From NCBI GenBank assembly GCA_024404505.1, contig JAKSPU010000007.1, forward strand, positions 1 through 43,026: 43,026 nt of DNA, given 5' to 3'. The translations under genes and the position numbers were made by a program. Under the pieces are notes generated by a model, which was not told where the DNA came from, ran no database searches, and worked only from the letters and a program-made list of their open reading frames with translations. This DNA is from Clostridia bacterium (GTDB taxonomy: Bacteria; Bacillota; Clostridia; Oscillospirales; CAG-272). Shown piece after piece: positions 19,851-39,922 of this stretch. Position 1 is the first letter of the stretch. Each line of letters begins with the position of its first letter.

Positions 19851-22800
19851 TTACTCGGAGGGAAGCACGGTAAGAATGCCTTCGATCAAAGTTATCTTAT
19901 AATTCTTTGTCACGTCTTCTCTGGCCCGGTTGATGATCATGACCAACGCGTCCGGGATCGAGTTGATGGTAAATCCCGGATCCGTGATATGGGAATCGGT
20001 CTTTGCGTACAGTGTGTCACCCGCCGCAAGATATCCCTTTGAGATCCAGACCTTGGAGGAGGACAGTGCTTCTCCGTCGTATAATTTGGTGACCGACTCG
20101 GAAGTAAGCTCGATCTCACATTGTCTGATCTCATAAGGACAGTATGTGATACGGTCGATCCCGTCAGGCACGTCAAAGACGAGCATGAATTTGTCGGACA
20201 CGTCCTGCCCATCCAACAGGATCTTCCATTCCAGAATGTCAAGGATGTGGGTATTCATATCCGACAGGGAGTACCGGCAGACGTTCACTTCCTCGATTAA
20301 GGGAGTGATCATAACCTGCAGGCCATCAGGGAGCTGCAGGAAATCGAAGTCTTCCGGGTCGAAGGTCAGCGGCGTTCCGTCGTAGTATTTGGAGATCTGA
20401 TACGGGAAAACGCGGATCTCGCCGCCGGAAACACGCAGCACGCCGTTTTCCTTCGTGATGGAGTATCGCGCGGACTCGGTCACGTCATTCCCCAGCGGAT
20501 CGTACAAGCGGAAATCGGTTACGCTGCTTATGCCGTCACCGATGACGGTCTGCTCACCCTTGATCGTAACGGAATAGGTATAGCCGTTTTGAATGAGGTC
20601 GTTAAGTACGGGATCATAATCCAACTCGGCTGGGGCATACAGGGGCGTACCGTCGTACACCTTGCTCCGGAAGACCGGTCGGATCGTAATTTCCTGTGCC
20701 TCGGAACCGCTGCCTCCGCCGGATCCTCCACCGGAGCCACCGCCCGATACACTGCCCGATTCTCCGCCGCAGGAACGGCAGTCGCCCGGCGTCGAATCCA
20801 CGATGATCCAGCCGAGTCCGTCGACGTAAGCCTCGCACCAGGCGTGTCCGGGTGTTTTGATCTCGGTAAGCTCGTCTTTCTGAGCTGCCACATAGAAGCC
20901 CTCAACGTATCGGGCGGGGATGCCCAGCGCGCGGAGGATCAGTGTCGTTGCAGATGCGTAGTGACGGCAGACACCTTCCTTATAGGTCGACAGGAAATCG
21001 ATGATGACGTTGGTGCTGGCGTCGAGGCCTACGTCGTACTCCAGATTGTACTCGGCGGCGCTGCGCACGAACGCGGCCACCTGATTGATAATGGTCGGAT
21101 CGGAGGCATCAAAGTGCTGAACGTCGATCACGTTCGCCCGCAGCCAGTCGGCGGTATCCTGATCGATCCGGGTATACTCGGGATACACGAAAGCCCGGTA
21201 CTCCGCCTCATAGGCTGCATACTCGCCGAGTTGATTTTTCAGCGAATTCCATTTCTGAAGGTCATCGGCGTCGTAGTAGACGGCGGTGTAATCGCTCAAC
21301 GTATCCGTGTAATACACGTCGTCGTCGGGGGTATAGCAGCTCGGCGCCTGCTCGATGTAGCAGGGCAGCATGAACAAACTCATGTTGGTGAAAACGGCCG
21401 TCTGAAGCTCGTACTGACCCGAATTGCGCAATGCGATCGAGGTCAGCAGGTTATAGCTGACACCGCCCGGCAGCGTTTTCCCGTAGGGAGTACCGCTTCG
21501 CCATCCTGTTCCGGTATAGTCGGAATAGGAGAACTGTCGCAGGTACAGAGGGCCGGACGAGGTAGCCGTCATCTCACCGATCACAGACTCGGAGTCAAGG
21601 CCATATCCAGCGAGAGATTGATCTTGGCTGATAGTCAGCTTGCCTTCCTTCGTCAGGATCGTATACTCATTCGTTACGTCCTTCCCGCTCACATTGACAA
21701 CCTTCACGGAAGCGGTGTTGGGGGCTGTGCCCGGCTCGACGATGCTGCCGGTCACGGTGACGAGCACCTTGTATCCGGAAGGGATCGCTCCGTCTGACTC
21801 GACCGAGTATTCATTGCAGACCAGCGGCGTTCCGTCGTAGGGCTTGGATGCGGAACCGGTGCTGACTGTGATCGTGATCGCAGGCAGCACGGTCAGCGTG
21901 CCGGTGCTGACACTGAGGATATCGTAGTTTTTGGTCACGTCGGCTTTCTTGACGTTGAGGACCTTGACCGAGGACGCCTTGATGGTATTGGGGGATGACC
22001 CGATCTTGGTCTGCGTACCGGTGATCGTGGCCGTCAGGGTATGACCGCTGACGAGCGGGTACGGCGAATCGGGCGCGGTCTGACAGGTCTTGTCGGTGAG
22101 TGCCTTGCCGTCGTATTTCTTCTGCCTGGTGACAGATTCGACGATGATCGGGCGCTTGTTGACGGTCAGCTTACCGCTTTCAAACGTGAACAGGTAGTTG
22201 CCCGTCGAATCACTGCCGTCTGCCTTCGTGACCTTGACGGCAGGGTTGACCGTTGCGGTTTTCATGCCTGCGTCCGTCTGCGAGCCGACGGCCTCGGCGG
22301 TCAGCACCTCACCCGCGACGATCTGACGGGGCGACAGCCCCGCCACCGCGACGGTGGTCGTCAGCGGCAGGTCGTCATATATTTTCTCCGCGTCGAGAGC
22401 CTTGAGCGTGACGGGCCGTCGGGTAACCGTCAGTTTCCCCCACTTGAACGTCAGGTCGTAGTTATTTGTCACGTCGATCGGCTGCGGCGAATCAGCGTCC
22501 CTGTACACGCGGAGGCTGTCGGGTTGATTGATGATGCTGCCCGCATCCGTGATGGAGGGGTAGGTGCCGTCGACAGGCCGGTCCCCTGCTGCCCATGTGA
22601 TTGGGGAGATTACGGTGAAGTCCGGGGCCTCAAGCGGAGTTCCGTCGTATTCCTTGGTTACGGAAGCGCTCGTGACAGTCACCTTCCGTTTGTTGACCGT
22701 GATCTTGCCCCACGTGAAGGTTATGTCGTAATCCCTCGTGACGTCCTCGTCCGTCAGCATACTCCGGATGTACCAACCGTCCTCCAGCGAATTTTCATAT

Positions 22801-25112
22801 ACACCGGCGTCGCGGAATGTTTTGAATCGTCCTTCCGGCGTATCGTTGACAGCGATCTGGAGGGTGGAAAGCAGGTTATACCCTGTGACCTGATAGCTTT
22901 CGCCGTCGTACGTCCACGTTTTGGATGACGTTGAGTAGCTGACAGGTCGCTTTGTGACCGTCAGGGTCCCGGGATTGAGCTTGATCTGATAGTTGGACGT
23001 GGCATCCGTCCCGTCGGACCTGATCACCCGGCAGACAGCGTCGTTGGAGACGCTGCCGGCGTGCAGGATGGCCGGCGTATCGGAAAGAAGGACCTTCTCG
23101 TCCGGTGCTGTAGTCGTGCCGTCGCCGAGCTTGAAGCCGGTTTCTTCATGCTCATAGCTGTCGTAGACCCACGAATTGCTGTTCGTGTTGACGACGAGCG
23201 GACGGGGCGTGATCTCAAGCGTGCCGAAATCGGTCGTTATCTCGTAGTTGGCGGTCACGTCCTGCCCGTCGGCATCAAGGACCGCTATGCTGTGCCCGTT
23301 CTCCGCCGTACCGACGTTCTGAAGGGAGCGCGCATCGTCGAGCCTTGCGGTATGACCGTCTGCCAGCCCCTCAATATTGACATCGGGCGCGGAATGGACG
23401 CATCCATCGTATTCCCACGTTTCGGACGGCGTGGTGACGGACAACGGCCGGGGTGTGACCTCAAGCCTGCCGAACGCCGTCGTGATATCATAGTTATGGG
23501 TGACGTCCCGTCCGTCCGCGTCCAGAATGACGGTGCCGCGCGAGTTTTCCGCCTGTCCGGCTTCCCGCAGCTGCGGGACTTCCCCGAGCTGCATAACGTG
23601 GCCCTCCGGAAGCTCGGAAACGGAGACGTCCGGTGCCTCGTGGATCACGCCGTCGTACACCCACGTCCCGTCAGGTGTCCTGACGGTGACGGGCAGAGGC
23701 GTGACTTCCAGCGTGCCGAACTCGGTCGTGACCGCGTAATTGGACGTGACGTCCTGTCCGGCGGCGTCGAGGACCACGATCTCCCGCGTATTCTGCATCC
23801 GTCCGACGTCGGTCAGCTCGGGAGCGGAACATTCTTTCCATATATGACCGTCTGCCAGACCGTCCACGAGGACCTCCGGCATGGCGTGTACGGTTGCGTC
23901 ATACGTCCATACGGCGCTGTCCGTCGTGATCCGGAGAGGTTTCGGCGTGACCGTCAGCGTGCCGGGTATGATGAACAACGCGTAATTATCGGTGCGGTCG
24001 ACCCCGTCCTCATCCAGAACGCGGATGACGGGCAGGTTCTCCGTTGTCCCGACGTCTGTCAGCGTGATGAAGTCCGCTTCGACGTGCTGGCCCTCGGCCG
24101 GCTGCGCATCCTCCGATACCGTGATGCCCCGGTAGGTGACGGGATTCCCGTCATACTCCCGCTCGGAGGTCTCGGTTTCGATCGTCAGCGGCCGCTTCGT
24201 CACGGTCAACGTTCCGGGAATCACCTGAATCGTGTAGTGCAGCGTGATGTCCTCACCGTTCCGGAGAACGTGGAACACGGGCTTGTTTTCGACCTCTCCG
24301 GCGTCGGTGAGCTGTGCGTCAAATACAGCCGACAGCCTGTCGCCGTCGATCATGCCGCCCGCCGTGATCTCGTAGTAATCGGGGCAGGAAAGGGGCGTCC
24401 CGTCAGGCGCGATCTCTTGGTCTTTGTCACAGGAATGGGGTTTCCCGTCGTAGGTAAAAGAGACTTCCTTGATCGTGACGGTCAGTTCGGCGGGAAGGAT
24501 GCGTACCTGCTTCACCGGCAGGTCGAGCTCATATGCGTATGTGACGTCCACACCGAGGTCGCTGATAATGACCACAGAGTCCGGCTCGATGCCGATACCG
24601 GTCGTTTCCGCAGCCATATTTCCCCATTTCAAGCTGTATGACTGCAGCGTATCCCCGTAAACGGTGTCGGCTTTGACAGTCGGCTCGCTGCCCCACACGA
24701 ACTCACCTTCCTCGGGTTCCAGAAGGAGCTTTCGCGGAACGATGGAGAAATCGTGGGTCTTGCGGTAGCGTGTACCCCCGAACAGGCCCTTCGTGACGGT
24801 GCGGACGGAGTAGCTTCCCGGCATAACGGGCTGCCGATCAGACCAGATCACGTTTCCTTGTCCGTCGGGAACGCCGTATTCAAGGCTGAGCGGGGAGAGG
24901 ACGCCTTCCGCGGAGTATAGGACAGGATCCCCGTATCTGACGATATCGGGGATATTCTGCTCATCTGTCACCGATCCCGTGATGAGCAGCATGGCGGCAA
25001 AGATTGCCGCGATGACACACGTCACGATGACGATCAGCCCGATATGAGCGAAAACAGCTTTCATAAAGTCGGCTGCTTTCTCTATTCTCCGTTTATACGT
25101 TCCGTATTTCAT
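19851..25112 (-). CDS. Giant anchored extracellular protein: about 14 MBG-like repeats with a transglutaminase domain
   Basis: 1753 aa. One membrane helix near residues 23-47 (GLIVIVTCVIAAIFAAMLLI) suggests a signal anchor with the rest outside. About eleven MBG-like beta repeats follow, each with a TYDG(T/K)P-like start and ending in a DVT.NY..T...GTL.VT.RP motif (for example QDVTANYEITTDFGTLEITP). Next comes a transglutaminase-like domain whose triad is visible: Cys near 1380 in EGVCRHYASATTLILRALGI, His near 1424 in GHAWCEAY, Asp near 1439 in IIVDSTPGD. A Gly-Ser linker (GGGSGGGSGGGSGSE) and about three more repeats complete it. GGGAG precedes the ATG. No LPXTG motif is seen. It may crosslink or cleave surface peptides; substrate unknown. 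Confidence 0.88.
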   Translation of the reverse strand: MKYGTYKRRIEKAADFMKAVFAHIGLIVIVTCVIAAIFAAMLLITGSVTDEQNIPDIVRYGDPVLYSAEGVLSPLSLEYGVPDGQGNVIWSDRQPVMPGSYSVRTVTKGLFGGTRYRKTHDFSIVPRKLLLEPEEGEFVWGSEPTVKADTVYGDTLQSYSLKWGNMAAETTGIGIEPDSVVIISDLGVDVTYAYELDLPVKQVRILPAELTVTIKEVSFTYDGKPHSCDKDQEIAPDGTPLSCPDYYEITAGGMIDGDRLSAVFDAQLTDAGEVENKPVFHVLRNGEDITLHYTIQVIPGTLTVTKRPLTIETETSEREYDGNPVTYRGITVSEDAQPAEGQHVEADFITLTDVGTTENLPVIRVLDEDGVDRTDNYALFIIPGTLTVTPKPLRITTDSAVWTYDATVHAMPEVLVDGLADGHIWKECSAPELTDVGRMQNTREIVVLDAAGQDVTSNYAVTTEFGTLEVTPLPVTVRTPDGTWVYDGVIHEAPDVSVSELPEGHVMQLGEVPQLREAGQAENSRGTVILDADGRDVTHNYDITTAFGRLEVTPRPLSVTTPSETWEYDGCVHSAPDVNIEGLADGHTARLDDARSLQNVGTAENGHSIAVLDADGQDVTANYEITTDFGTLEITPRPLVVNTNSNSWVYDSYEHEETGFKLGDGTTTAPDEKVLLSDTPAILHAGSVSNDAVCRVIRSDGTDATSNYQIKLNPGTLTVTKRPVSYSTSSKTWTYDGESYQVTGYNLLSTLQIAVNDTPEGRFKTFRDAGVYENSLEDGWYIRSMLTDEDVTRDYDITFTWGKITVNKRKVTVTSASVTKEYDGTPLEAPDFTVISPITWAAGDRPVDGTYPSITDAGSIINQPDSLRVYRDADSPQPIDVTNNYDLTFKWGKLTVTRRPVTLKALDAEKIYDDLPLTTTVAVAGLSPRQIVAGEVLTAEAVGSQTDAGMKTATVNPAVKVTKADGSDSTGNYLFTFESGKLTVNKRPIIVESVTRQKKYDGKALTDKTCQTAPDSPYPLVSGHTLTATITGTQTKIGSSPNTIKASSVKVLNVKKADVTKNYDILSVSTGTLTVLPAITITVSTGSASKPYDGTPLVCNEYSVESDGAIPSGYKVLVTVTGSIVEPGTAPNTASVKVVNVSGKDVTNEYTILTKEGKLTISQDQSLAGYGLDSESVIGEMTATSSGPLYLRQFSYSDYTGTGWRSGTPYGKTLPGGVSYNLLTSIALRNSGQYELQTAVFTNMSLFMLPCYIEQAPSCYTPDDDVYYTDTLSDYTAVYYDADDLQKWNSLKNQLGEYAAYEAEYRAFVYPEYTRIDQDTADWLRANVIDVQHFDASDPTIINQVAAFVRSAAEYNLEYDVGLDASTNVIIDFLSTYKEGVCRHYASATTLILRALGIPARYVEGFYVAAQKDELTEIKTPGHAWCEAYVDGLGWIIVDSTPGDCRSCGGESGSVSGGGSGGGSGGGSGSEAQEITIRPVFRSKVYDGTPLYAPAELDYDPVLNDLIQNGYTYSVTIKGEQTVIGDGISSVTDFRLYDPLGNDVTESARYSITKENGVLRVSGGEIRVFPYQISKYYDGTPLTFDPEDFDFLQLPDGLQVMITPLIEEVNVCRYSLSDMNTHILDILEWKILLDGQDVSDKFMLVFDVPDGIDRITYCPYEIRQCEIELTSESVTKLYDGEALSSSKVWISKGYLAAGDTLYAKTDSHITDPGFTINSIPDALVMIINRAREDVTKNYKITLIEGILTVLPSE

Positions 25113-25146
25113 ACTTGCTCCCGTTCAACTGCTGTTTCCGAGAAGG

Positions 25147-28100
25147 TCAGTAAGTGACTTTCAAGGTACCTTTTTCCGTAACGATGTGGTAATTGGCGGT
25201 GACGTCCGTCCCGTCCTGATTGACGATTCTCAACGTGCCGATGTTGATGATGTTGTCGCATCGTCCGATCTGCGTCTGGCTGCCGACGACCTCACAGACC
25301 TCGATAACGTCGCCGGGTACAAGGGCTCCCGAAATGATTTCATATCCCGGCGCCGTCAGCGGTGTGCCGTCGAACGGACGCTGCGCATCCGCTGCCTTGA
25401 GGGTAAGCTCAGCGGGCTCCATGGTCAGAGTGCCGAAACGGCGTACGGGCCAATAGCACGAGGTACGATCAACGCCGTTCTGATCGACGATATGAATATC
25501 AAAGCTCGCGGGACCGGTGCCGACCGAGTCTACTTTTCCCGTGGGGTCTAAGATCACCGAGTGACCGCTCATCAATTCACCGGATTCAACGCGGCAATCG
25601 TCCCGGGACGTGACGATGGGCTGACCGTTATAAACCCCGGAGGAGCCGTCGCTCACGCAAAGGATCTCATCGTAGTAGAGATGGATATACCCGCTTCTGA
25701 TGCCGATTGTCAGCGTATTCGTGACGTCCTTGCCCAACTCATCGTATATGCGCAGACTGTCGATGCGGACCTCGGTGTATCCCGGTTCTCTCGCGTAGCC
25801 GTTGATCACGACTTGATAAGTATAACCTTTATCCTCTAATTTCTCCAGCCCTTTTACCTTTTGCTCAGGATAGACCACACTGCCGTCGAAGCGGCATCTG
25901 GTCGTCACGGGTGTGACGATATACTGTTCATATTCATATGGGTTTGCAGGAGGAGGCTCATCGCTGCCTGCCGCGGAACCGGATCCGTTGAAGGCGGCTG
26001 TTACTTCCACACAGATCCAGCCGATCCCGTCAAGATATACCTCCACCCACGCGTGCGCAGATAACATTGATACAGGCGTCCATTTATCGGCTTTCACATC
26101 CGTTCTAAATCCGATCGTATACCGGGCGGGTATCCCGATCGCGCGGAAAAGCGCAGTGCCTGCTGTCGCAAAGTGGCTGCATATGCCGCTATGGTATGTA
26201 TCCAGGAATGCGACGGCAATATTGCTTTCCCTGTCAAGCGAAGGATCATACTCTACGTTATAGTCTCCCGCTGCCCGGACGTACCGGGCTACCTGTTCGA
26301 TCAATACGAGCTTCTCCGCCGTCGAAGCGTGTGGAGGCAGCAGGAAATTGTGATCGTTGATGATCTTTCGCATATACTCGTACGTTTCATTGTCCAGATT
26401 CAGGTATTGACTGTATACGAAGGATCGGTATGACTTTTCATAGGAGGACAGAGTGCCGATCCCTGCAATCAGCATGTCGGTATCCGGGTGACAGTACGTG
26501 ACCTCGTAAGTGGTATCTTCTCCGGGCATGACATTCAGATCATCGACCCGGCAGGGCTGCGCGACGTTCGTCGTATAGTAGGGGACGCCGAGGTCCTCCT
26601 GCAGCATCTGTATCGTCAACAGGTCCTCGTCCGCTCCGGCCAGTTTCATACTCTCGCCTGCAAGCATACGGGCGGACTTGCCGTCGCTTATGGTTTTCGT
26701 ATATTCGACCGCGTCCAGCCATTTCTGACCGGTGTAATCCCCGAAACTCTTGACCTGCAGATATACGAATTCAGTACGGAAACCGTGTAAAAGGAAAACC
26801 AGGTCCGGGGGCAAATCATCGTCGGTTTCCTGCTCATTGTCACTTGAATGACCGATCGTCCCTTCTTTATTGAGGATCGATGAAGAAAGGCTTCCCATGC
26901 CGCTTCTGCCGGAATAGCCGCCTTCTTCGTCTGAACTGCCGGCTTCGCTGTCTCCGTCCATGATCCCCGGCTCGTTTCCGAAGCGGCCTTCTTCGGGAAG
27001 CTCATCGGATTCGGCGGGCTCATCCGAACCCGTGACCTCAACGCATATCCAGCCGATGTCGTCGAGATACACCTCTACCCACGCATGGGCCGTTTCCGTA
27101 GTGACGGAGACCCATTCCCCGGCCTCTGTCTTGGCCACGTACCCGACCGTGTAGCGGGCCGGGATGCCCATCGTGCGGAACAGGAGGGTGGCTGCCGTGG
27201 CAAAGTGGCTGCAGATGCCGTGCTTGTACTGACCGAGGAACGCTACGGCAATATTTCCTTCACTGTCCAGACTGCGGTCGTAGAAAAGATCGTATTGGGC
27301 GGAATGGGCGATGAAGGCCGCAGCGCGGTTGACCAGATCGTACTTTCCCTCGATCGTCAGGCTGTCACCCGGCACCAGATCGTAACGAGCCATACAATCC
27401 ACCAGAAACAGGTGAGTCTCCAGGTCCACCGCCAGATAATGCTCGTATACGAAATCCCGATATTCCGCCTCGTATGCAGCGGCCTCCGGGCTGACCTCCC
27501 ACTCGGTTTCTTTCGTGACAGAGCCGTAAGTAAACGTGTATTCGGAGTCCGGTCCGGCGTTTACCCCCGTATCCGCGATGGTGCAGGGCTTGTTGGAAGT
27601 GAACGTGTAGTATGGGACCGCGAACTCTTTCCCGAGCATCCGGAGCGTGACGCGTTTGTCCGTTTCCTGATCATGCGGCAGGCTGCTTGCCGCCAGTCTG
27701 CGCGCAGACAAATCGTCCCCAAAGGTCTGCTCATACGGGACGGCATCAAGCCAGCCGGTCCCGGTATAGTCGCCGAAGCTCTTGACCTGCAGGTATACAT
27801 CGTCATTTGCGGTCGAAAACAGAGCGAAAACGGGGTAGTCGGGAGCTGATCCGCCGATCACGCCGCCCAACGGTGTATCCAGATCGGCAAACGGCTCCAG
27901 AATATCGCTGTCTTCACCGGGAGCCAGATATCCGGGACCTTCTCCCGTTTCTGCTCCCGTTCCTGCTTCACCCGCTTCTCCCTTCTTCAACCGCGGCTCG
28001 CGGGAGGACGACCATTTGGACAGCCATCCGCCGCCCTGACGTTCTCCGCCCTCTTCCCGATCAAAGAAGCCGGGCAGGACGATCCACGCCGACAGAACGA

Positions 28101-28176
28101 CGGCGGCCACGACCAGCAGGGTACAGACCGTGATGACGGCAGGGTGCATCCCGCCGCCGGTTTCTTGCTTTTTCAT
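25147..28176 (-). CDS. Anchored extracellular protein with two transglutaminase-like domains and C-terminal MBG-like repeats
   Basis: 1009 aa. AAGGAGGT six bases upstream sets the start. A helix near 12-34 (AVITVCTLLVVAAVVLSAWI) anchors it, and an acidic, glycine-rich linker follows. Two tandem modules share a VYLQVKSFGDYTG opening and each ends in a transglutaminase core: GICSHFATAATLLFRTMGIP (Cys about 322, His in TAHAWVEVYL) and GICSHFATAGTALFRAIGIP (Cys about 666, His in SAHAWVEVYL). The usual third residue Asp is Glu in both (GWICVEVT). About three MBG-like repeats follow (QNGVDRTSCY, NQDGTDVTANYHIVTEKGTL). It is adjacent to and clearly related to the 1753-aa protein. The Asp-to-Glu change may alter activity. 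Confidence 0.88.
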   Translation of the reverse strand: MKKQETGGGMHPAVITVCTLLVVAAVVLSAWIVLPGFFDREEGGERQGGGWLSKWSSSREPRLKKGEAGEAGTGAETGEGPGYLAPGEDSDILEPFADLDTPLGGVIGGSAPDYPVFALFSTANDDVYLQVKSFGDYTGTGWLDAVPYEQTFGDDLSARRLAASSLPHDQETDKRVTLRMLGKEFAVPYYTFTSNKPCTIADTGVNAGPDSEYTFTYGSVTKETEWEVSPEAAAYEAEYRDFVYEHYLAVDLETHLFLVDCMARYDLVPGDSLTIEGKYDLVNRAAAFIAHSAQYDLFYDRSLDSEGNIAVAFLGQYKHGICSHFATAATLLFRTMGIPARYTVGYVAKTEAGEWVSVTTETAHAWVEVYLDDIGWICVEVTGSDEPAESDELPEEGRFGNEPGIMDGDSEAGSSDEEGGYSGRSGMGSLSSSILNKEGTIGHSSDNEQETDDDLPPDLVFLLHGFRTEFVYLQVKSFGDYTGQKWLDAVEYTKTISDGKSARMLAGESMKLAGADEDLLTIQMLQEDLGVPYYTTNVAQPCRVDDLNVMPGEDTTYEVTYCHPDTDMLIAGIGTLSSYEKSYRSFVYSQYLNLDNETYEYMRKIINDHNFLLPPHASTAEKLVLIEQVARYVRAAGDYNVEYDPSLDRESNIAVAFLDTYHSGICSHFATAGTALFRAIGIPARYTIGFRTDVKADKWTPVSMLSAHAWVEVYLDGIGWICVEVTAAFNGSGSAAGSDEPPPANPYEYEQYIVTPVTTRCRFDGSVVYPEQKVKGLEKLEDKGYTYQVVINGYAREPGYTEVRIDSLRIYDELGKDVTNTLTIGIRSGYIHLYYDEILCVSDGSSGVYNGQPIVTSRDDCRVESGELMSGHSVILDPTGKVDSVGTGPASFDIHIVDQNGVDRTSCYWPVRRFGTLTMEPAELTLKAADAQRPFDGTPLTAPGYEIISGALVPGDVIEVCEVVGSQTQIGRCDNIINIGTLRIVNQDGTDVTANYHIVTEKGTLKVTY

Positions 28177-28232
28177 TTCCGTACCTCCTTCCGGGGTCCG
28201 GGCAGCACGGACGGCTGCCTGAAAAGATTTAC

Positions 28233-28404
28233 GGCATCACCGCACAATGCACGGCTGACGCCTTGACGGCACATATGCTTGCATAAATTCCGTCATATTT
28301 TACAAAATTCCTTCGTGCGGGAGTCACCGCACGCGCGGAATTTTGTTTCATCTGACGAAATTTCTGACGGCGCATCTGCGCCGTCATCATTGTGCGGTAA
28401 TGCC
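28233..28404. mobile_element. MITE-like 172-bp imperfect palindrome flanked by TTAC
   Basis: The ends are GGCATCACCGCACAATG and CATTGTGCGGTAATGCC, inverted with one mismatch. Inner parts also pair: AAATTCCGTCA with TGACGAAATTT, ACAAAATTCC with GGAATTTTGT, and CGTGCGG with CCGCACG. The sequence TTAC is present directly on both sides (28229-28232 and 28405-28408), as expected for a 4-bp target duplication. The right TTAC contains the stop codon of the AAA+ gene. There is no room for a transposase. In the RNA it would fold into one long hairpin inside the operon, between the AAA+ and transglutaminase genes. Confidence 0.75.
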
Positions 28405-31789: not shown

Positions 31790-32907
31790 TTACGCGTTCC
31801 GCTGCAGTTTGCGGATGAATTCGAGGCAGGAGGCCATGCGGTCCTCGCCGAAGAGACTGTCGAGGTAGTCGGCAAGCCCCTGAGCGGCCGTCCTGAGGTA
31901 GATGGGATTCTGCGTCTCGAGCTTGCGGAAGACCTTTTTGGCGAGGATGTCGTCAAGGGCGTCCAGCTCGTCACCGCCGCAGGCGATGTAGACGGGGATA
32001 TAGGTCGTGATCTGTTTCATGATGCGGTTGCCGAAGGTCACGTGGAAGTGATCGGTCATGTAGGTATCCAGCATTTTCAGACGCTGCAGGTTGCGGCTGC
32101 TGATGCGGTAATCCTTGAGCGCTGCGTCGGTGAGCGCCTTGAAACGCTCGGCGGACAGATGCACCGCGGCGGTCGGCGGGGCGCTGAAGCGCTCGCACTT
32201 GCGGTCGAGGTTCATGATCATGGCGCGGTCGTAGACCTTATCCGAAATGGCGAAGGTCGAGTCATCGTTGTTGGCCGTACCGATGAACCACATATTCTCC
32301 GGCACCTTGATCTTGCCGTCCTTCAGCTGCGGGGGATCGGTCTCCCACTTGTCGGTGACGACGCCGAGGTAGCGCGTCTCCGGATCGGGCAGCTCGAGCA
32401 TGGAAAGAAACTCCGCAAAGTAGTATTCCACGCGGGCGATGTTCATCTCGTCGAGGACGGTGACGTATATATCCTTGCTGTAATTCGCTTCGTACATGAG
32501 CTGCAGCAGCGGCTCCTCATGGAAGCGCTTGGTGAACTCGTTGTAGTAGCCGATGAGGTCGGTGCGCTCCTTCCACATGGGCTGCACCGGGATGACAGAC
32601 GACTGCCGGTCCGTGAAGCGCCCGAAGGCAACAGCCAGAGAGGTCTTGCCCGTACCGGACATACCCTGCAGGATGATGATATGCGAGACGGCCATGCCCG
32701 CGATGAAGCGGCGGATGTCGTCGATGCTGTAATACAGCCCGAGACTGTATGCCGAGTAATCCCGGAAGCGTGTGCAGAACTCCTCCAGCGTGATCTGATC
32801 GTCGTAGCTGTCCTTGCTGAAGCTGTCCTTCCGGCTCTCAATCTCCGTCAGCATGCAGAATCGGTCCTTATGATCCCCCTCCTCACCCTCAGCGGATGAC
32901 TCGGGGT
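31790..32907 (-). repeat. Direct repeat B, partner of 28405-29522
   Basis: Second copy of the ~1.1-kb AAA+ coding segment, in the same orientation. This copy lacks the palindromic element after its stop codon: TTACGCG is preceded by GGGTTT instead. Confidence 0.93.
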
Positions 32908-33118
32908 CCTCTTCGGCGCTCCTGTCTGCGGGAGCGGCGGCTGTCTCGCCGGTCCCGGTCCGTCGGTTGGCGAAAGCGTCCGCGATCAGAAAAACGGCCA
33001 AGATCATGATGACAGCTATGACTGCCAGCGCCCCGATGATGAGAGGCGTTTCATAGGCGGTCAGATCCAGGTAGAAAAGACCCGAACCCGGAGACAACCG
33101 ATACAATGCGTGTGTCAT
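31790..33118 (-). CDS. Membrane-anchored AAA+ ATPase (McrB/MoxR-like), copy B
   Basis: 442 aa from ATG at 33118, with GGGAGA seven bases upstream. The frame extends further but without a binding site and into the preceding gene. One N-terminal helix (about 26-47, LIIGALAVIAVIMILAVFLI) is unrelated to the anchor of copy A. From about residue 71 the protein is the same as copy A, including Walker A (about 152-159), Walker B VTVLDEMN and the FIGTANNDDSTFAISDKV sensor region. Two ATPases with identical motors but different anchors suggests a mixed ring or two addresses for the same motor. Confidence 0.9.
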   Translation of the reverse strand: MTHALYRLSPGSGLFYLDLTAYETPLIIGALAVIAVIMILAVFLIADAFANRRTGTGETAAAPADRSAEEDPESSAEGEEGDHKDRFCMLTEIESRKDSFSKDSYDDQITLEEFCTRFRDYSAYSLGLYYSIDDIRRFIAGMAVSHIIILQGMSGTGKTSLAVAFGRFTDRQSSVIPVQPMWKERTDLIGYYNEFTKRFHEEPLLQLMYEANYSKDIYVTVLDEMNIARVEYYFAEFLSMLELPDPETRYLGVVTDKWETDPPQLKDGKIKVPENMWFIGTANNDDSTFAISDKVYDRAMIMNLDRKCERFSAPPTAAVHLSAERFKALTDAALKDYRISSRNLQRLKMLDTYMTDHFHVTFGNRIMKQITTYIPVYIACGGDELDALDDILAKKVFRKLETQNPIYLRTAAQGLADYLDSLFGEDRMASCLEFIRKLQRNA

Positions 33119-33138
33119 GTGTTTTCTCCCTTCGCGCT

Positions 33139-36100
33139 TCACGCCTGTTCGGTGTCCGTTCCCGCGCGGCGCAGGCGTGCCGCCTTGACCGACGCGGGGA
33201 ACGCGTCCTCGCCGAAGATGCTTTCCACGGCTGCGTCGGGCGTCATGTCGCCGGCTTGCAGCTTCCCGGACACCGCGCGCAGGACGCAGGGCACGAGGCG
33301 GGCGGCGACGGCGTGATCCATGGAAGCGTCCGCGTCTCCGCCGCACGCTCGGTAGGTCGCCGCATACTGCTCAAGGCCGGTGGCAATGCGGTTGTTCATG
33401 GTAAAGCCGCCGTACTGCGCGGCATAGGCGGACAGCTCGTCGGTCCGCTTCCACATATCTTCGCTGATATCGAGCCCGTTCTGCGCGTTTTCCCACAAGT
33501 AACGGAACTGCCAGAAGGACAGTGTCCTGATCTCGCCGGACGCGGCCGGCTCACATTTCCGGAAGGCGCAGGTGAAGAACGCGGCGGATTCGGCGATGAG
33601 AGGCGAGACCTGACCGGGCAGCACGGGATACCGGCGTCCGGGGTCCAGCATCAGCCAGAAGTTGACGGGAATATTCAACGTATGCGCGGCACCGTCGATG
33701 CCGGTGAAGCGGACGGTGTCGGCGGTCCGGGGACCGGCGGCAAAACGGACGAAGGGCAGAAGGCAGGCTGCGCTGCCGTCCGTGGGTATATCGGTCAGGC
33801 GGTGCAGCGTGATCGCCTGCCGCTTGCTGCCCGCTGCTTCGACGGCGTTGTACAGCCCGGAGTATGCCTTGCCGTCGGGCGTCGCGGTGATGAAAAGTCC
33901 GGCCTCGTCCGTCAGCGACTCGGGCGCGGACGCGGTGGCGGCCGTCCCGAAGAAGCCGCAGAGCAGCTCCTGCAGCACGGCGGCGTCCGTTTCGCCCATC
34001 CCGCAGGGAACGAGCAGGCGAGAGGAGGACATGGCAGCCAGTACGGTGCGGGCCGCATCCTCCGTGAATTGATAACCCTGTGCCGCCGCGTAGCGGATGA
34101 GGTCGTCCGCCGCATCAGACAGTGTATACGCCCGGTCGATATATCGGTACTCGTCGTCGGTGCGCACGGTGTCGACCGCCTTGGTGACGGGGGCTTTCAC
34201 ACGGTCGAATTCCTTCACGAATACCTCGGAGACGTTGGTGACGGTCACGGTGTCCGCGTCGGCGAAGAAGCGGTCGTTCAGCTCGTTCACCTCGTTGACG
34301 ATCCGTTTCTCTTCCCGGCTGCGGTCGATGATCTCAAACACAAAGCACGCCGCGGCGCACAGGAACAGTACGAGCGCGATCACGCTGACGGCGATCGAAT
34401 TCACGCCGAGGTCCGCAAACAGGAAGCGGACACCCGCGGCCAGCGCGAGCAGGATAAAGCCCAGGATCAGATTTTTCGGGGTTCTCTTTTTCATGGTATA
34501 GTGTGCCTCCAATGTATAGCCTTCCTGCAGAATATTGGATTCGGAAACGCAGTACCGGGAGATCGGCTCCGCGTCGGACGAAACGACGGCCTCCCCGGAT
34601 GTATAAACCTTTGACAGCCGGATGTCAGCTGCGGATTCACCGATCATAATGACGTAATCGCCCTGCTCTGTCACCTGCTGCCCGGACGTGCCGTCGGAGA
34701 CCTCGGGCAGCTGCAGCGGCATGGTCAATATGCGGCTTTCTTTCGGCTGCAGCTCGACCGTCAGGAAGCCGCACAGCTGCCTGTCCGGCCGGATAGCACG
34801 GGACTGCTTCATCCCGATATACAGCTGGGGGACCGCCGTGCCGGGGCGATCGCCCGTGTTGGTGACGGTGAAGGAGACCTGACCGTCGGCTATGCTCATC
34901 CGGCTGTACCGGAACTTCGTATATGTCAGGCCGTGCCCGAAGCAGAAGCCCTCCGTGAAGAGGCTCGTGCCGGTGGTTCCTTGAAGATCGTCGACGGGGA
35001 TCCCCGTATCCGGATAGGCACGGTACCCCGTGAAGGGACCCGTCTTCAAGCCGTAGCGGCTTTGCGCGCGGTGTCGTTCGGAGACGATGCGGTCCGTGTC
35101 CGCGTACATCGTCACCGGCAGGCGGCCGGCGGGAGCCGCTGTGCCGCAAAGGATATCTGCCGCTGAGCACAGAACTGCGGGCGACGGGGCAGGCATTTTG
35201 ATAAGAGCAGAGAACGGCGCCGCGAACGCGGTATCGAAGGTCAGATCACTGAATACGACTGCTGCGATCTTGTCTCCGAGGGCGCGCAGCTCGTGCGCCA
35301 ATGCCAGTTGGTTGGCGGGGAGCTGACGGGTGCCGGCCCGCAGCATCCCGGATTTCTGAACGGGGGTCGGACCGAGGCACAGGATGACGCGGTCGGCGTT
35401 TTTCGCTGCCTCATACGCCTCCCGGATCAGATCATCCCCACCGTCACAGACGGAACAGTCATATCCCCGGCAGAACGTAACGTCCTTTGCGTGAAGGGCA
35501 GAGAGCTTTTCGATGAATACAGTCAGTGCCGTATCGGCCGGGCCGTCCGACAGGATCACGCTGCCGATGACAGCGACCGTGCCGGAAGCTTCCGGCGTAT
35601 CCGTACCGCCGCCGACAGGAAAGCGTTTCTTCCGGGGGGCGGGCAGGACCAGCGGAAGAAGATCGCGGTTGCGCAGCAGCACCGACGCCGACGGGATTAT
35701 ACGATCCGCCTGAAGCATGGGCTGGGCTGCCATTTGTGGATCCATCCCGGTCTCCGTAAGTGACCGGATCCTGAATGCGATCCCGATCACGCGTTCAAGG
35801 GAAGCACGCAGCACATCATCCGGCAAAGCTTCTCCGTCGGTGATCATCTGCGACAGACGGTCCGGCGCCCGGCGTCCCGCGTCGATCTCCCGCTTTTCCT
35901 CGTTGTATCGGGACAAGGCGGAAGCCAGCTCGGATACGTTCCCGCCGACCAGCACGCAGCCCTTCATGAGCAGCTTCACCGAATCACCCGGACGTACGTC
36001 GATACAGAACACACTACCGGGCAGATCAGCGGATGCCTCAAGTCCGACGCGGCGGAAGGCTTCGCACTCGTTGCCCATACTGACCGTCACGCCGAGGCAA

Positions 36101-36603
36101 AACGCATCTTCGGCGTTCTGATCGGTTGAAACGGCTGTCAGGGTTTCGTATACAGTACGTTCGTCCGGAGCATTTCCCATCCAGTCGGCGTCACGGGGGT
36201 CAAGCCCGTTGTTACCTATCACGAACGGGATCGAATATGCTGTCAAAGCCTCACGGTATGCTCCGACCGTGGCGCGGCTCAGCAGTCCGTCCTCGGACAA
36301 GCGGGCGGACAGGGGGCTGATCCCGACGGCGGGAGAAGGGATCACGGCGAGGTTGACGCCGCCGCGGCGCAGCTTTTGTACGGCTGCTGCCGCAGTCTGC
36401 TTCATGACCGTTGTATCCCACGAGGAGACGACCGCTGCCGGAGACGGCAGTCCATCCCCGAACGTATCGGAGACACGGCCGATCACGACCGCCGGGATTC
36501 CGGCGTCGCGGTATTCTTCTTCCGTGATCACCCGGAAATCGGCCAGCAGCCGCAGGATCTGAGTCTGCGTCAGGTTATTGATGATTTGTGTGTAATCGGA
36601 CAT
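33139..36603 (-). CDS. GH3-like domain / two membrane helices / degenerate AAA+ fusion
   Basis: 1154 aa from ATG at 36603 (AGGAAAGG upstream; the longer frame overlaps the preceding gene). No signal peptide. Residues about 35-700 follow GH3 beta-glucosidases: N-domain (IPAVVIGRVSDTFGDGLPSP), a C-domain beginning LLRNRDLLPLVLP, and the FnIII-like end GHGLTYTKFRYSRM with FTVTNTGDRPGTAVPQLYIG. The KHF-type substrate motif is missing, although an Asp in GSVFCIDV may align with the nucleophile. Two helices lie near 710-757. Residues about 800-1154 are homologous to the neighbouring AAA+ proteins (NNRIATGLEQYAATYRACGG against GNRIMKQITTYIPVYIACGG), but Walker A is lost (GMGETDAAV instead of GMSGTGKTS). 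Probably a non-catalytic membrane partner of the ATPases. Confidence 0.82.
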   Translation of the reverse strand: MSDYTQIINNLTQTQILRLLADFRVITEEEYRDAGIPAVVIGRVSDTFGDGLPSPAAVVSSWDTTVMKQTAAAAVQKLRRGGVNLAVIPSPAVGISPLSARLSEDGLLSRATVGAYREALTAYSIPFVIGNNGLDPRDADWMGNAPDERTVYETLTAVSTDQNAEDAFCLGVTVSMGNECEAFRRVGLEASADLPGSVFCIDVRPGDSVKLLMKGCVLVGGNVSELASALSRYNEEKREIDAGRRAPDRLSQMITDGEALPDDVLRASLERVIGIAFRIRSLTETGMDPQMAAQPMLQADRIIPSASVLLRNRDLLPLVLPAPRKKRFPVGGGTDTPEASGTVAVIGSVILSDGPADTALTVFIEKLSALHAKDVTFCRGYDCSVCDGGDDLIREAYEAAKNADRVILCLGPTPVQKSGMLRAGTRQLPANQLALAHELRALGDKIAAVVFSDLTFDTAFAAPFSALIKMPAPSPAVLCSAADILCGTAAPAGRLPVTMYADTDRIVSERHRAQSRYGLKTGPFTGYRAYPDTGIPVDDLQGTTGTSLFTEGFCFGHGLTYTKFRYSRMSIADGQVSFTVTNTGDRPGTAVPQLYIGMKQSRAIRPDRQLCGFLTVELQPKESRILTMPLQLPEVSDGTSGQQVTEQGDYVIMIGESAADIRLSKVYTSGEAVVSSDAEPISRYCVSESNILQEGYTLEAHYTMKKRTPKNLILGFILLALAAGVRFLFADLGVNSIAVSVIALVLFLCAAACFVFEIIDRSREEKRIVNEVNELNDRFFADADTVTVTNVSEVFVKEFDRVKAPVTKAVDTVRTDDEYRYIDRAYTLSDAADDLIRYAAAQGYQFTEDAARTVLAAMSSSRLLVPCGMGETDAAVLQELLCGFFGTAATASAPESLTDEAGLFITATPDGKAYSGLYNAVEAAGSKRQAITLHRLTDIPTDGSAACLLPFVRFAAGPRTADTVRFTGIDGAAHTLNIPVNFWLMLDPGRRYPVLPGQVSPLIAESAAFFTCAFRKCEPAASGEIRTLSFWQFRYLWENAQNGLDISEDMWKRTDELSAYAAQYGGFTMNNRIATGLEQYAATYRACGGDADASMDHAVAARLVPCVLRAVSGKLQAGDMTPDAAVESIFGEDAFPASVKAARLRRAGTDTEQA

Positions 36604-36659
36604 CTCGGATGACTGCCTTTCCTGTTTTCTGTACTGACCCGGCATAGACGCGGGCATCG

Positions 36660-37508
36660 TCAACGTGTCACGATCCACGCTGCCTCAGTCGTCTTGTGGA
36701 ACAGCGGGTACAGGGTATGCCTGAAAATATACCGGAACCCTTCGGGGATGATCCGACCGAAGAAATCATTGAGAATGCGCGGAAGCTCCTCGACGAAAAC
36801 AAATCTGAACCAGCCGGGCAGCGTTTTGCCGAAAAACTGCCCGATCGCGGAGGGAACGGTATCCTTCAGGAAGTTCTGCACGGGTTCGGCTGCGTAATCA
36901 TACAGCACCCAATACACGGACAGCGCGAGAAGCACCGTGACGGCGGCGAGCGCCATCCAGAAGAACGGGGTATTCTTTGCCGGGAGTTTGCCCACGACGG
37001 ACTGCTCTCCGACGGCTTTGGCGGCAGTCCGGGCAGGACGCGGCTGCCCGACGAAGCTGACCGTCACGCCGCTGTCCCGCAAGGCATATCGGTAGGCGCC
37101 GCTGGTATAGGACGTGACACGGACGTTTACGTCCACACAGGCGGGCTGCAGGAGCGGCGCCTCCTGCGGCGTATACGTGCTGCCCGGTGCGACGGCGAGA
37201 TACGGGAACGTAAAGTCGGAGGAGGTCAGGATGCAGCCGTTGGCATCCAACTGCTCCACGACGCAGGTAATCTCGTGGACTCTCCCGGAAGTATCGTTAC
37301 GGAAACGGATCAGCAGGTATTTATTCTGCACGGATCTCCGTTGCGCGGCGGTGCCGTTCTCTTCCTCACCGCTGAGGAGCACGTATTGCCCGACGCAGAC
37401 CTGCCCGGACATGGCGCTCTCGGTACAGTCCCGTGCCTTGAACACCCGGCTGCGTATCCCCGATATCCATCTGTATTTCGGTTTACCGACTGCAAACGCA
37501 CGGCTCAT
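36660..37508 (-). CDS. Single-pass membrane protein of unknown function
   Basis: 282 aa from ATG at 37508, chosen because it overlaps the stop of the upstream gene as ATGA; the longer frame has no such support. Residues 1 to about 165 look like a soluble beta-rich domain with an unusual surface-protein flavour (TCVVEQLDANGCILTSSDFT, NVRVTSYTSGAYRYAL). One helix lies near 186-208 (FFWMALAAVTVLLALSVYWV). The C-terminal ~70 residues are aromatic and amphipathic (IGQFFGKTLPGWFRFVFVEE), and may lie along the membrane. I recognise no family. Its place suggests a component of the same envelope assembly. Confidence 0.72.
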   Translation of the reverse strand: MSRAFAVGKPKYRWISGIRSRVFKARDCTESAMSGQVCVGQYVLLSGEEENGTAAQRRSVQNKYLLIRFRNDTSGRVHEITCVVEQLDANGCILTSSDFTFPYLAVAPGSTYTPQEAPLLQPACVDVNVRVTSYTSGAYRYALRDSGVTVSFVGQPRPARTAAKAVGEQSVVGKLPAKNTPFFWMALAAVTVLLALSVYWVLYDYAAEPVQNFLKDTVPSAIGQFFGKTLPGWFRFVFVEELPRILNDFFGRIIPEGFRYIFRHTLYPLFHKTTEAAWIVTR

Positions 37509-38224
37509 ATGTTGATCACCGTCCTTATCAGCTTTCTGTCGCGCAGCAGCATACAGCCGCCGAGAAGAGCGCCGATCAATGCCCCTGTGAGGCACGTCAC
37601 GCCCCATGATACGGGCATCACCTGACCCGCCAGGTGAACTGCTCCGAAAATCTCAGACAAGGATAGGCGCATCAGTGCCGCGAGCGCAGCCGTCAGCACG
37701 ACGGTCAGCGCAACGGCCGCGACGCGGCCTGCGGCTGCGGACGCAAAGATCGGTTCGTCCGAGATCCGCGCGCCGTCCCGTGTACGTTGTATGACGCTGA
37801 CGTAATTCGTCTCCGGCGGGAGGATGACGGCCTGCGTCCAGGACGCCCGGTTGAGGTACTCGTCGACCCGAAGGATGTCCGTCAGACGATCGTCGGTGTC
37901 AAAAACCGCCACATCGTACCCGATCTGATCGGTCTGGCCGTCCGTCAGACATTTCATCATCTTATGCCCCGTGCCCGACGATACGATGATCACGTACTGA
38001 CGGATCGACGGTGCGCGGCGGCAGCCCGGCTCGTATACGACGGCCCGTCCTTCGGGAAGCAGACACCGCCGCAGACCGCGGTCGCTCATCTTCGCCGAAT
38101 AAACGGGGCGCAGCACGCGGCGGGGGATCGTTCGTGTGACCGCGATCAGATACAGGATAACGCCGGCGGCGAGCAGAATACCCACACCGACTATTTTCAG
38201 AACGGTATCAAAGACTATAACCAT
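37505..38224 (-). CDS. Small membrane protein of unknown function (about three helices)
   Basis: 239 aa. One N-terminal helix (about 7-28, TVLKIVGVGILLAAGVILYL), a hydrophilic domain of about 130 residues (VYEPGCRRAPSIRQYVIIVS, ILPPETNYVSVIQRTRDG), and two C-terminal helices (about 165-190 and 208-228). No family recognised. A GGAAC sequence is the only candidate ribosome binding site. The 85 bases separating it from the upstream gene contain nothing I can name. It overlaps the next gene by four bases. Confidence 0.72.
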   Translation of the reverse strand: MVIVFDTVLKIVGVGILLAAGVILYLIAVTRTIPRRVLRPVYSAKMSDRGLRRCLLPEGRAVVYEPGCRRAPSIRQYVIIVSSGTGHKMMKCLTDGQTDQIGYDVAVFDTDDRLTDILRVDEYLNRASWTQAVILPPETNYVSVIQRTRDGARISDEPIFASAAAGRVAAVALTVVLTAALAALMRLSLSEIFGAVHLAGQVMPVSWGVTCLTGALIGALLGGCMLLRDRKLIRTVINI

Positions 38225-38309
38225 ATTTCTGTTCCGGTCCGCGCCTCTCTGCCGGCGGGACGATTCCTTTCTTCAGGCTTGGCGGGCTTTGCCCTCGGTG
38301 GAACGAAGG

Positions 38310-39812
38310 TTATTCTGTTCCGTCACCTGCGTGCCAAGACTCCGGCCGGATGCCGAACACCTGCGCGACCTCGTCTGCATTGACGTTATCACTCCGGTCG
38401 TCAAACTGCATGGCGATGGCCTGGGACATGACGGTCAGCATATCGTCGGAGGCATTGATGCCCATAATGCCGGTATAATCGTACAGGCAGTCGCTTATCG
38501 TCGTCAGGCGGCGGTCGCCGGAATAGGATGCGGTGCCGTTCACCGTATCGGTCAGGTCGGCAATAAACGTACTGTACTCATTCGGCATGCTTCCGCACTT
38601 GGCTCTCATGACGGCACCGAACGCAATGCGTACCGTATCGTTGAGCGACTCCGCACAGGGGGCAAGGTTTTCGCTGCGCTGCAGTTCGGCGTTGACGGCT
38701 TCAAGGAAGCTTTCCTCGGTCATCCTGTTCAGGATCTTTTCCTGCGGGATGCCCCGGAGCGTGCCGAACTCCTCGAATACGCTCATCACGACGTCAAGGT
38801 CGCTGCACACCGTTTCATTTCCGACCAGTGAAAGCCGTCCGAGCATCGCTTGGATGATCGGGGACTCAACGCTGTCCGATGCCTGTGCACTTTCCGTATA
38901 AGCAGCCAGCCATACCGGCGCCTCCGCCCGAACGTAATCAGGCAGGATGTGCATGGTGCAGGGAGACCGTTCCGCCTCGGAGATCAGGGCTTGCAGCGTG
39001 CCCGCCGTTCCGGCGGGATCGGGATTTGCGGGATTCGTGAGCAGCGGCAGATTCTCACGCAAACCGCGCAAAATGGGCTCTGCTGAAACGAGCTCGTCAA
39101 CCGGCAGACAGGTTTTGTTGTCGATCCGGGTGCGGGCGGACGTCCGGTAGATCAACCGCCCGCCGCACGCGTACAGGACCTCTGCCGAAGGATCCTGCGC
39201 ATACACGGCAAGCGACTGCCGGTTGCTTTCGTTCAGCTTGCCGAGGTGGATTCCCTCCGTACGGTTCAGGACCGTCATCATGGTATCGACCGTTTTGAGA
39301 CTGCCCGTCACGGGTGAGAATACGATCACGCATATCACGAAGGCTGCTGCGGCTCCGACGGCGGCGCCGACCGCCCGGTCGGGATTCTGTTCACTGCCGA
39401 TTATACGTTCTGCGGACTTTCCTTGGCTGCGCTGCCCGGGGGCGTGCTTTTCCTGCCTTTCCGAAGCGGATATGATCAGACCGCCGACGAGCCACAGGAG
39501 CAGGAACAGGACAAGCCCGACGGCAGGAGAAAGCAGCCCCGACAGGAAACTGCGGCAGAGGCCGGCGTAGCCGGGATATCCCGTAAAGGGACCGGTCAGG
39601 TCGAGATTGTCGAGAATGGTATCTGCAAGGCCGCCCAGCGTGAGTCGGGTCAGCACAGGCGCCGACAGCGCGGCGATCACGGCAGCCGCCAAAATGACCG
39701 CGAGGCGCAGCAACGATACGGGCGCGCCTTTTCGGTATCCCCGCAGCCCGCCGACCACCATTCCACCTGCCGTGACCAGCAGGATGACCATGGACAGGGT
39801 TGTGAATGTCAT
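38310..39812 (-). CDS. CvpA-like multi-pass membrane protein with large C-terminal domain, first gene of the envelope AAA+/transglutaminase operon
   Basis: 500 aa from ATG at 39812; GGAGG (39822-39826) sits nine bases upstream, better placed than for the in-frame ATG codons at 39845/39842. The first ~170 residues have four or five helices in a CvpA-like layout (LRGYRKGAPVSLLRLAVILA, SPAVGLVLFLLLWLVGGLII, AAVGAAAAFVICVIVFSPVT). The remaining ~320 residues are hydrophilic and alpha-rich with no family I recognise. CvpA family proteins are inner-membrane proteins linked to secretion and envelope stress. The CvpA link is by layout only. Confidence 0.65.
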   Translation of the reverse strand: MTFTTLSMVILLVTAGGMVVGGLRGYRKGAPVSLLRLAVILAAAVIAALSAPVLTRLTLGGLADTILDNLDLTGPFTGYPGYAGLCRSFLSGLLSPAVGLVLFLLLWLVGGLIISASERQEKHAPGQRSQGKSAERIIGSEQNPDRAVGAAVGAAAAFVICVIVFSPVTGSLKTVDTMMTVLNRTEGIHLGKLNESNRQSLAVYAQDPSAEVLYACGGRLIYRTSARTRIDNKTCLPVDELVSAEPILRGLRENLPLLTNPANPDPAGTAGTLQALISEAERSPCTMHILPDYVRAEAPVWLAAYTESAQASDSVESPIIQAMLGRLSLVGNETVCSDLDVVMSVFEEFGTLRGIPQEKILNRMTEESFLEAVNAELQRSENLAPCAESLNDTVRIAFGAVMRAKCGSMPNEYSTFIADLTDTVNGTASYSGDRRLTTISDCLYDYTGIMGINASDDMLTVMSQAIAMQFDDRSDNVNADEVAQVFGIRPESWHAGDGTE

Positions 39813-39893
39813 GTCCGTATATCCTCCGTCCGGATGATTCATCATTAAAGCATCCGTTCTCGTTTGAAAAATGAATTTTCTTGCATAATATAC

Positions 39894-39922
39894 ATAATAT
39901 CATATATTAATGAAATTGTCAA
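39894..39922 (-). promoter_or_regulatory. Promoter of the nine-gene envelope operon
   Basis: On the minus strand TTGACA (39917-39922), a 17-base spacer and TATTAT (39894-39899). It is the only clear promoter I see for genes 39812 down to 19851, whose gaps are otherwise short except at the palindrome near 28300. Confidence 0.87.

Follow-up and report, generated by a model that had tools for sequence, protein, structure and literature searches.

In McrBC restriction, GTP-specific hydrolysis is stimulated by McrC, and relatives of McrB and McrC have been studied as defence systems that target DNA or RNA. Another set of bacterial operons, of the MoxR–DUF58–transglutaminase type, links AAA+ genes to membrane-bound transglutaminase proteins. 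A third group, the CoCoPALM systems, was named in the main text of Bell et al. 2024 (PMC11090510), which defers the details to a later paper. Here we describe an operon of nine genes, g1 to g9, on a 43,026-nt stretch of DNA from Clostridia bacterium (assembly GCA_024404505.1, contig JAKSPU010000007.1), the whole of which we refer to as the window. As far as its sequence and those of its relatives allow, the operon appears to encode a real, conserved and unusual envelope-linked variant of the McrBC type, belonging to a known but functionally open kind.

Nine consecutive minus-strand open reading frames (ORFs) fill positions 39845-19851, just where an earlier interpretation made from the letters alone (the sequence-only reading) had placed nine same-strand genes between one promoter and one terminator. 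Gene calls come from our own scripts, and transmembrane (TM) segments from hydropathy; GH3 stands for glycoside hydrolase family 3.

39894..39922 (minus): promoter-like site, TTGACA-17-TATTAT with TG before the second hexamer, 11 of 12 positions by consensus match alone
38310..39845 (minus): g1, 511 residues, 4 TM segments, weakly CvpA/Colicin_V-like (Pfam 21.3 bits, cut-off 29.3)
37505..38224 (minus): g2, 239 residues, 3 TM segments, without a Pfam match
36660..37607 (minus): g3, a soluble N-terminal part followed by one TM segment; likely start 37508, giving an ATGA overlap with the g2 stop
33139..36678 (minus): g4, GH3 C-terminal and Fn3-like domains, a TM hairpin and a C-terminal AAA-like domain; likely start 36603
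31790..33118 (minus): g5, 442 residues, one TM anchor and a McrB-like AAA+ core (AAA_5 5.2e-6, scanned as a longer 518-residue ORF)
29765..31735 (minus): g6, 656 residues, related by alignment to DUF2357/McrC-N, with a long C-terminal coiled coil and a conserved C-terminal tail
28405..29775 (minus): g7, 456 residues, a TM hairpin anchor and an AAA+ core near-identical to that of g5 (AAA_5, scanned as a longer 506-residue ORF)
25147..28176 (minus): g8, 1009 residues, single-pass, two transglutaminase cores (Transglut_core 6.7e-41, two stretches) and C-terminal repeats
19851..25112 (minus): g9, 1753 residues, single-pass, a basic N-terminal tail, YDG/MBG-type repeats and one transglutaminase core
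19815..19852 (minus): intrinsic-terminator-like hairpin over the g9 stop codon, 17 pairs (9 G-C), then a T run

The sequence-only reading had also predicted three further membrane proteins and two large anchored transglutaminase proteins, and the list bears out both, with 4, 3 and 1 hydropathy TM segments in g1, g2 and g3, two cores in g8 and one in g9. The genes are closely packed, with gaps of 85 nt (g1-g2), 20 nt (g4-g5), 54 nt (g5-g6) and 34 nt (g8-g9), a gap of 56 nt between g3 and g4 if g4 starts at 36603, an ATGA overlap of g2 and g3 if g3 starts at 37508, and an 11-nt overlap of g6 and g7. The g7-g8 gap of 228 nt exceeds the other junctions, and about 176 nt of it are a palindromic repeat found throughout the genome. 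The hairpin at the end of g9 ranks first among 25 terminator-like sites in 19500-39499, where shuffled sequences average 15.0. Co-transcription of g1-g9 is likely, and the arrangement goes beyond chance because many other genomes repeat this order of genes.

First, the identity of the motors. In g5 we find a Walker A motif GMSGTGKTS, a Walker B motif VLDEMN and a sensor NNDD of the NxD form, a McrB sensor variant described in the main text of Bell et al. (PMC11090510). Walker A, Walker B and the NxD sensor, including sensor residues N283, D285 and D286, are invariant in all 13 aligned AAA proteins from 8 genomes, and the best PDB match of a profile of 13 AAA relatives is E. coli McrB (6hz4, E 3e-4). 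The identification of g5 and g7 as NxD-type McrB relatives, and not as MoxR proteins, is strong on these motifs and matches; given this McrB kinship, GTP rather than ATP would be the expected fuel. The sequence-only reading had rightly seen two anchored AAA+ motors, while passing over both their McrB-like type and the 99.7% identity of g5 and g7 over 1,120 bp, and a MoxR-like assignment does not hold.

Between the two motors lies g6, whose coiled coil is predicted from SMC-type and other coil matches. A relative of g6 (L036_1), 31% identical to it over 582 residues, matches DUF2357 at 28.4 bits against a cut-off of 23.3, and g6, L036_1 and a further relative (L033_8) are all homologous by BLAST and alignment. 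Searches up to E 1 with g6, and up to E 0.1 with the other two, returned no nuclease match. By hydropathy, g6 has one flagged segment, at residue 210, and its seven aligned relatives have none. By homology, g6 would belong to a family related to DUF2357 (McrC-N) in which no nuclease is detected, a kinship that went unrecognised when the gene was first called a coiled-coil partner.

The g4 protein combines a GH3 C-terminal domain (Glyco_hydro_3_C 1.1e-16) and an Fn3-like domain (5.5e-12), with no Pfam match to the GH3 N-terminal catalytic domain, a TM hairpin at about residues 737-780, and a C-terminal domain whose family is BLAST-similar to g5 and g7; an alignment of 8 members, judged by eye, shows no Walker A in this AAA-like domain, which lacks Walker motifs. 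The GH3-like/dead-AAA+ membrane fusion that had been proposed for this gene is thus what we find. In two of the 8 aligned members a Cys-rich, zinc-ribbon-like segment (by eye) replaces the GH3 part, which suggests that the g4 N-terminus may be cytoplasmic.

Second, the two motors seem to share one catalytic core, whose coordinates are as follows.

31790..32909 (minus): AAA core of g5, 99.73% identical to the g7 core, ending at the stop codon
28405..29524 (minus): AAA core of g7, 99.73% identical to the g5 core over 1,120 bp, ending at the stop codon

Across 60 loci with full AAA pairs, the core DNA identity is 98% or more in 28, 92-98% in 5 and 88.6% or less in 27, and no pair falls between 88.6 and 92%. 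Among the 33 similar pairs, the matching stretch begins past the TM segment, and in 32 its end lies no more than one base from the stop codon; the anchors, meanwhile, differ between the two copies and are conserved. In the tree the two copies from a locus group as sisters in 33 of 60 cases; once the tree is cut down to the 27 other loci, 22 of these have their upstream copies in one clade and their downstream copies in another. The pattern looks like the concerted evolution of a single catalytic core carried by two anchors. Repeated gene conversion of an ancestral pair would account for it better than many independent duplications, given the conservation of gene order and of the differing anchors. 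Several draft assemblies have contig breaks within the AAA gene, an effect to be expected of identical repeats.

Third, the arrangement is conserved well beyond this genome. Searched with g6, a sample of 146 genomes of the window's family gave matches in 36, most of them in other operon types. In one of these a single AAA gene stands beside a signal-peptidase-like cluster, C1, in all 16 such loci (two annotated C1-type loci have Peptidase_S26 and EAL Pfam matches, one Peptidase_S26 match being above cut-off), and in another a polytopic AAA stands beside a partner of about 520 residues, with DUF2357 below cut-off in the two scanned. The nine-gene type is present in at least 12 of the 146 genomes, found either through g6 (G000, G032, G117, G115, G069, G123, G113, G078) or through AAA pieces (G104, G128, G068, G089), the latter accompanied by g4-like genes, surface genes or both, on contigs whose ends fall within the AAA gene. 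In G032 a single contig bears the nine genes in their order; in G128 they are split, with g1-g4 and one AAA piece on a first contig and an AAA piece with both surface genes on a second, and no g6 was found. Two loci (L037 and L039, in G123 and G078) are without g4 and have one surface protein, which carries the transglutaminase. In a sample of 398 genomes of the phylum, a query with A1 matched 21 genomes, the strong one being our own genome alone and the other 20 reaching E 2e-6 or worse at best, 18 of them in the coiled-coil part; the system is therefore far from universal.

Scanning named genomes yielded 161 relatives, and 80 of these were used; adding seven family loci and discarding two duplicates brings the total to 85 loci. 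The named-genome loci were selected by the patterns VYENRF and PPI..TN, so that the frequency of those motifs in them proves nothing. Excluded were L040, which belongs to another clade, and L099 and L103, which lie on the contigs already represented by L033 and L034; the near relatives L120, L124 and L157 were retained. Loci short of flank were omitted from each count, and the denominators differ for this reason. The 80 kept relatives are mostly animal-gut Clostridia metagenome-assembled genomes (MAGs), Candidatus Gallimonas, Borkfalkia, Acholeplasmatales and Anaeroplasma, and carriers also include a Haloplasma MAG and a named strain, Anaerocaecibacter muris CLA-AA-M11. The order of dead AAA, AAA, coiled coil, AAA and surface proteins holds in Clostridia- and Bacilli-titled MAGs and in the one named strain: the coiled-coil gene has an AAA gene immediately upstream in 68 of 71 loci (misses L119, L121, L139) and immediately downstream in 74 of 76 (misses L139, L145), a dead AAA stands further upstream in 59 of 62 (misses L037, L039, L121), with a GH3-like part in 53, and the last AAA is followed by a large single-pass protein in 59 of 61 and by two in 53. 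A g2 or g3 relative occurs in 35 of 56 loci. Homologues scattered through unrelated neighbourhoods, which the sequence-only reading had named as the outcome that would speak against it, are not what these counts describe, and a single conserved, envelope-associated McrBC-type system is well supported.

What, then, does the engine act upon? The genes downstream of the last motor suggest surface fibres. The motif Y[DN]G occurs at 5.5 per 1000 residues in 114 surface proteins versus 0.25 in 147 same-strand upstream ORFs. In our locus g9 matches AgI_II_C2 (2.6e-11) and YDG (1.1e-8) besides Transglut_core (4.4e-18, motif Cys1382/His1423); the g8 C-terminal repeats resemble those of g9, with no repeat family above the Pfam cut-off, and the two g8 cores carry Cys322/His364 and Cys666/His708. 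The second surface protein has a basic tail with Y..Y in 51 of 54 loci, and its first 110 residues have a mean identity of 33.9% against 28.3-29.0% in the next three segments.

We tentatively favour, at somewhat below even confidence, a model in which a McrBC-type engine at the membrane assembles or actuates these MBG/YDG-repeat surface fibres. The products of g1-g9 would form one trans-envelope machine, in which g5 and g7 present one catalytic core on two membrane anchors within a McrB-type AAA+ ring, presumably a hexamer. The nucleotide-dead AAA-like domain of g4 probably joins this ring, giving mixed subunits, and the DUF2357-related g6 would stimulate it. Working at the cytoplasmic face of the membrane, as the hydropathy-predicted topology suggests, the ring may act on the cytoplasmic tails or membrane anchors of g8 and g9 and thereby assemble, position or pull on a surface fibre layer, which in this genome the transglutaminase domains of g8 and g9 might then crosslink or trim. 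While the identification is strong, the mechanism deserves a moderate grade. What the sequences themselves carry is the gene order, the families, the intact NTPase motifs, the Cys/His motifs, the homogenised cores and the g9-type tail.

Several points weigh against this fibre model. The link between motor and surface rests on gene order and a modestly conserved anchor, and the gain in identity at the anchor is small for the first surface protein (23.0% versus 19.2-21.2%). No secretion channel, sortase or signal peptidase was matched in the nine proteins. Of 12 downstream proteins of other loci scanned with Pfam, only 5 have an MBG or YDG family above the cut-off; 4 have one below it and 3 have none. 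Neither g6 nor L033_8 passes DUF2357, leaving one of three scanned operon-type members that does. The homogenised copies could partly reflect assembly, though the named strain (L098) has them too, its AAA pair being 98.5% identical over 1,097 bp. Lastly, the link of CoCoPALM to pilus assembly, made by Bell et al. (PMC11090510), is in its turn a predicted one.

The place of the transglutaminase bears on the strongest of the alternatives, namely that a MoxR-like chaperone pair switches surface transglutaminase crosslinking or proteolysis on and off, with the repeats as mere spacers. The Cys/His motifs of g8 and g9 suit this idea, and in the 146-genome sample the ten genomes with the strongest g8-like matches outside our own all carry the system. 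However, the AAA proteins are McrB-type, there is no DUF58 or VWA match in the nine proteins, as the sequence-only reading had already remarked, and a transglutaminase core was found in only 31 of 61 loci by a model first built from 6 cores and then iterated. That count is a lower bound because the second surface gene is often cut by the end of the fetched stretch (it runs off or was not found in 41 of 61); yet even where both surface genes are complete (20 loci), a core is present in 12 and lacking in 8, and a Transglut_core search through the available sequence of 18 carrier genomes without a core at the locus found no core whatever in 10 of them, while each of the other 8 has one or more. 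Among the 12 scanned downstream proteins of other loci, one (the first of L158) has Transglut_core. We consequently rejected transglutaminase as a defining part; it is an optional one, and surface crosslinking or proteolysis therefore cannot be the shared core function. The single envelope system foreseen by the sequence-only reading stands, without the control of crosslinking or proteolysis as its common purpose, and the activation scheme is unlikely.

Anti-phage defence, in which a membrane-anchored McrBC-derived system would sense infection and act at the envelope, draws on the kinship with McrB and McrC, on a match of the AAA core to the PADLOC candidate PDC-M26A at 4.8e-45, and on a patchy distribution (two of four sampled genomes of the genus labelled g1, a label distinct from the gene). 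The match is nonetheless unspecific: at its best it spans positions 312-430 of 724, and other McrB relatives match PDC-M26A too, two polytopic ones at 8.3e-56 and 1.2e-49 and a signal-peptidase-linked one at 4.9e-34. There is no nuclease or other effector match in the nine proteins (the PADLOC scan was made without g9), a Pfam scan of nine flanking proteins in the window shows no restriction or other obvious defence family, and among plasmid and phage records none spans 80% of g5, the partial matches lying in 266 plasmid and 2 phage records. We regard defence as quite improbable. Outside-in sensing, with surface ectodomains that bind a ligand or surface and a ring that transduces inward without assembling fibres, can point to very large BspA-type leucine-rich repeat (LRR) regions in some g3 relatives and to the divergent sigma-factor fusion upstream in the window, but with no signalling domain match in the nine proteins, and with homogenised catalytic cores that would fit a motor better, it is slightly less probable still.

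Within the fibre-assembly model, a more doubtful extension is that the McrB/McrC engine was repurposed for surface fibres with a core kept identical by gene conversion, two anchors and a dead AAA, and that it works independently of peptidoglycan. This independence is argued because the carriers include Acholeplasmatales MAGs without any wall-synthesis family tested: Transgly (PF00912), Transpeptidase (PF00905) and Mur_ligase (PF01225) were not found in three carrier Acholeplasmatales/Acholeplasmataceae MAGs (L166, L129, L144), a result on which we rejected peptidoglycan as a general target. The control, ribosomal protein S7, is also missing from L166 and L144, so these two sequences are incomplete, and the upstream AAA frame of L129 is fragmented. 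The proposal that all Bacilli carriers are wall-less was rejected as well, since the Haloplasma MAG (L158) and the Anaeroplasma-type L168, L128, L137 and L153 have Transgly. A purely peptidoglycan role is disfavoured.

Further features surround this core. Relatives of g1 occur in G032, G128 and G104 and on one G117 contig, and three of the four others also match Colicin_V below cut-off. Relatives of g2 stand upstream of the core in many loci; a signal peptidase identity for g2 was rejected, there being no such Pfam match in g2 or in three relatives scanned, and neither g2 nor g3 matches any Pfam family above cut-off. Two g3 relatives (L080, 5183-10891; L102, 314-5293) have very large BspA-type C-terminal LRR_5 regions (E <1e-200) and sit directly upstream of a g4 homologue. 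A gene divergent from the operon and 284 bp from g1 (40130-43024, plus strand, running off the window end) encodes sigma-70 regions of the extracytoplasmic function (ECF) type fused to a long C-terminal part, and might regulate the operon; a convergent cysteine-containing gene (18947-19669, plus strand), without a Pfam match at 0.001, faces the terminator. The remaining feature is the repeat between g7 and g8.

28229..28404 (no strand): palindromic repeat element, like a miniature inverted-repeat transposable element (MITE) or a repetitive extragenic palindrome (REP), with genome-wide matches

The 228-nt gap has 57 matches in the 2.95-Mb draft genome, many of them at contig ends; this number counts the gap itself and the matches that the palindrome gives in reverse orientation. 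At 13 other genomic places the match covers at least 160 nt. The same genome holds a second McrB relative (L053, 9280-13547, G000:C113), an AAA protein with about 11 hydropathy TM segments that matches PDC-M26A at 8.3e-56 and adjoins a 526-residue protein with DUF2357 below cut-off.

If the model is true, the McrB/McrC engine would be seen doing envelope work, in a conserved branch that has no nuclease and is wired to surface proteins, and the little-explored CoCoPALM group would gain a relative whose candidate cargo is clear. That the AAA pair exists in two states, near-identical in 33 loci of 60 and diverged in 27, offers a natural experiment on why the two subunits must be identical or need not be. 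A literature search for "MBG domain" with transglutaminase gave no paper with both among the matches listed, and beyond Bell et al. the matches listed for CoCoPALM look unrelated by title.

How does the system compare with those already described? The operons of the MoxR–DUF58–transglutaminase type share AAA+ genes with a linked transglutaminase gene, whereas here the AAA family is another, DUF58 and VWA are unmatched and the transglutaminase is optional. CoCoNuT systems share the NxD motif and long coiled coils; they use HEPN or other nucleases, of which the nine proteins show no match. With E. coli McrBC, a type IV restriction system, the operon has in common the type of AAA+ core (6hz4 being the best PDB match) and a DUF2357-related partner; there a PD-(D/E)xK nuclease is fused to DUF2357 and a DNA-recognition domain sits on McrB, while here no nuclease is matched and the AAA proteins carry a membrane segment, with no such recognition domain matched. 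The last comparison is with CoCoPALM. In the tree, which was rooted with polytopic sequences that are themselves not monophyletic, the 120 AAA sequences of our operon type form one clade (support 0.996) and the signal-peptidase-linked AAA sequences a separate clade of 16 (support 0.967), and it is the latter that fits CoCoPALM by its description in the main text of Bell et al. Operons of this signal-peptidase-linked McrB/DUF2357 kind have EAL-domain neighbours (L062, 397-1860; L063, 15704-16507), suggesting cyclic di-GMP control of CoCoPALM-like systems. The word "transglutaminase" has a count of 0 in the main text of both versions of that paper. As described there, CoCoPALM has signal-peptidase family proteins, a GTPase fused to an FtsB-like domain (a TM segment and coiled-coil helices) and a McrC homologue with DUF2357 and a coiled coil; the nine proteins here have no Peptidase_S26 match, their membrane segments are predicted by hydropathy, and one of three scanned members passes DUF2357. 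Two AAA genes of a separate clade here flank the coiled-coil gene, joined by a dead-AAA/GH3-like fusion and by repeat/transglutaminase surface proteins. To judge from that main text, what both would share is an NxD McrB-type AAA+ protein with a membrane segment, beside a coiled-coil DUF2357-related protein, in an envelope context.

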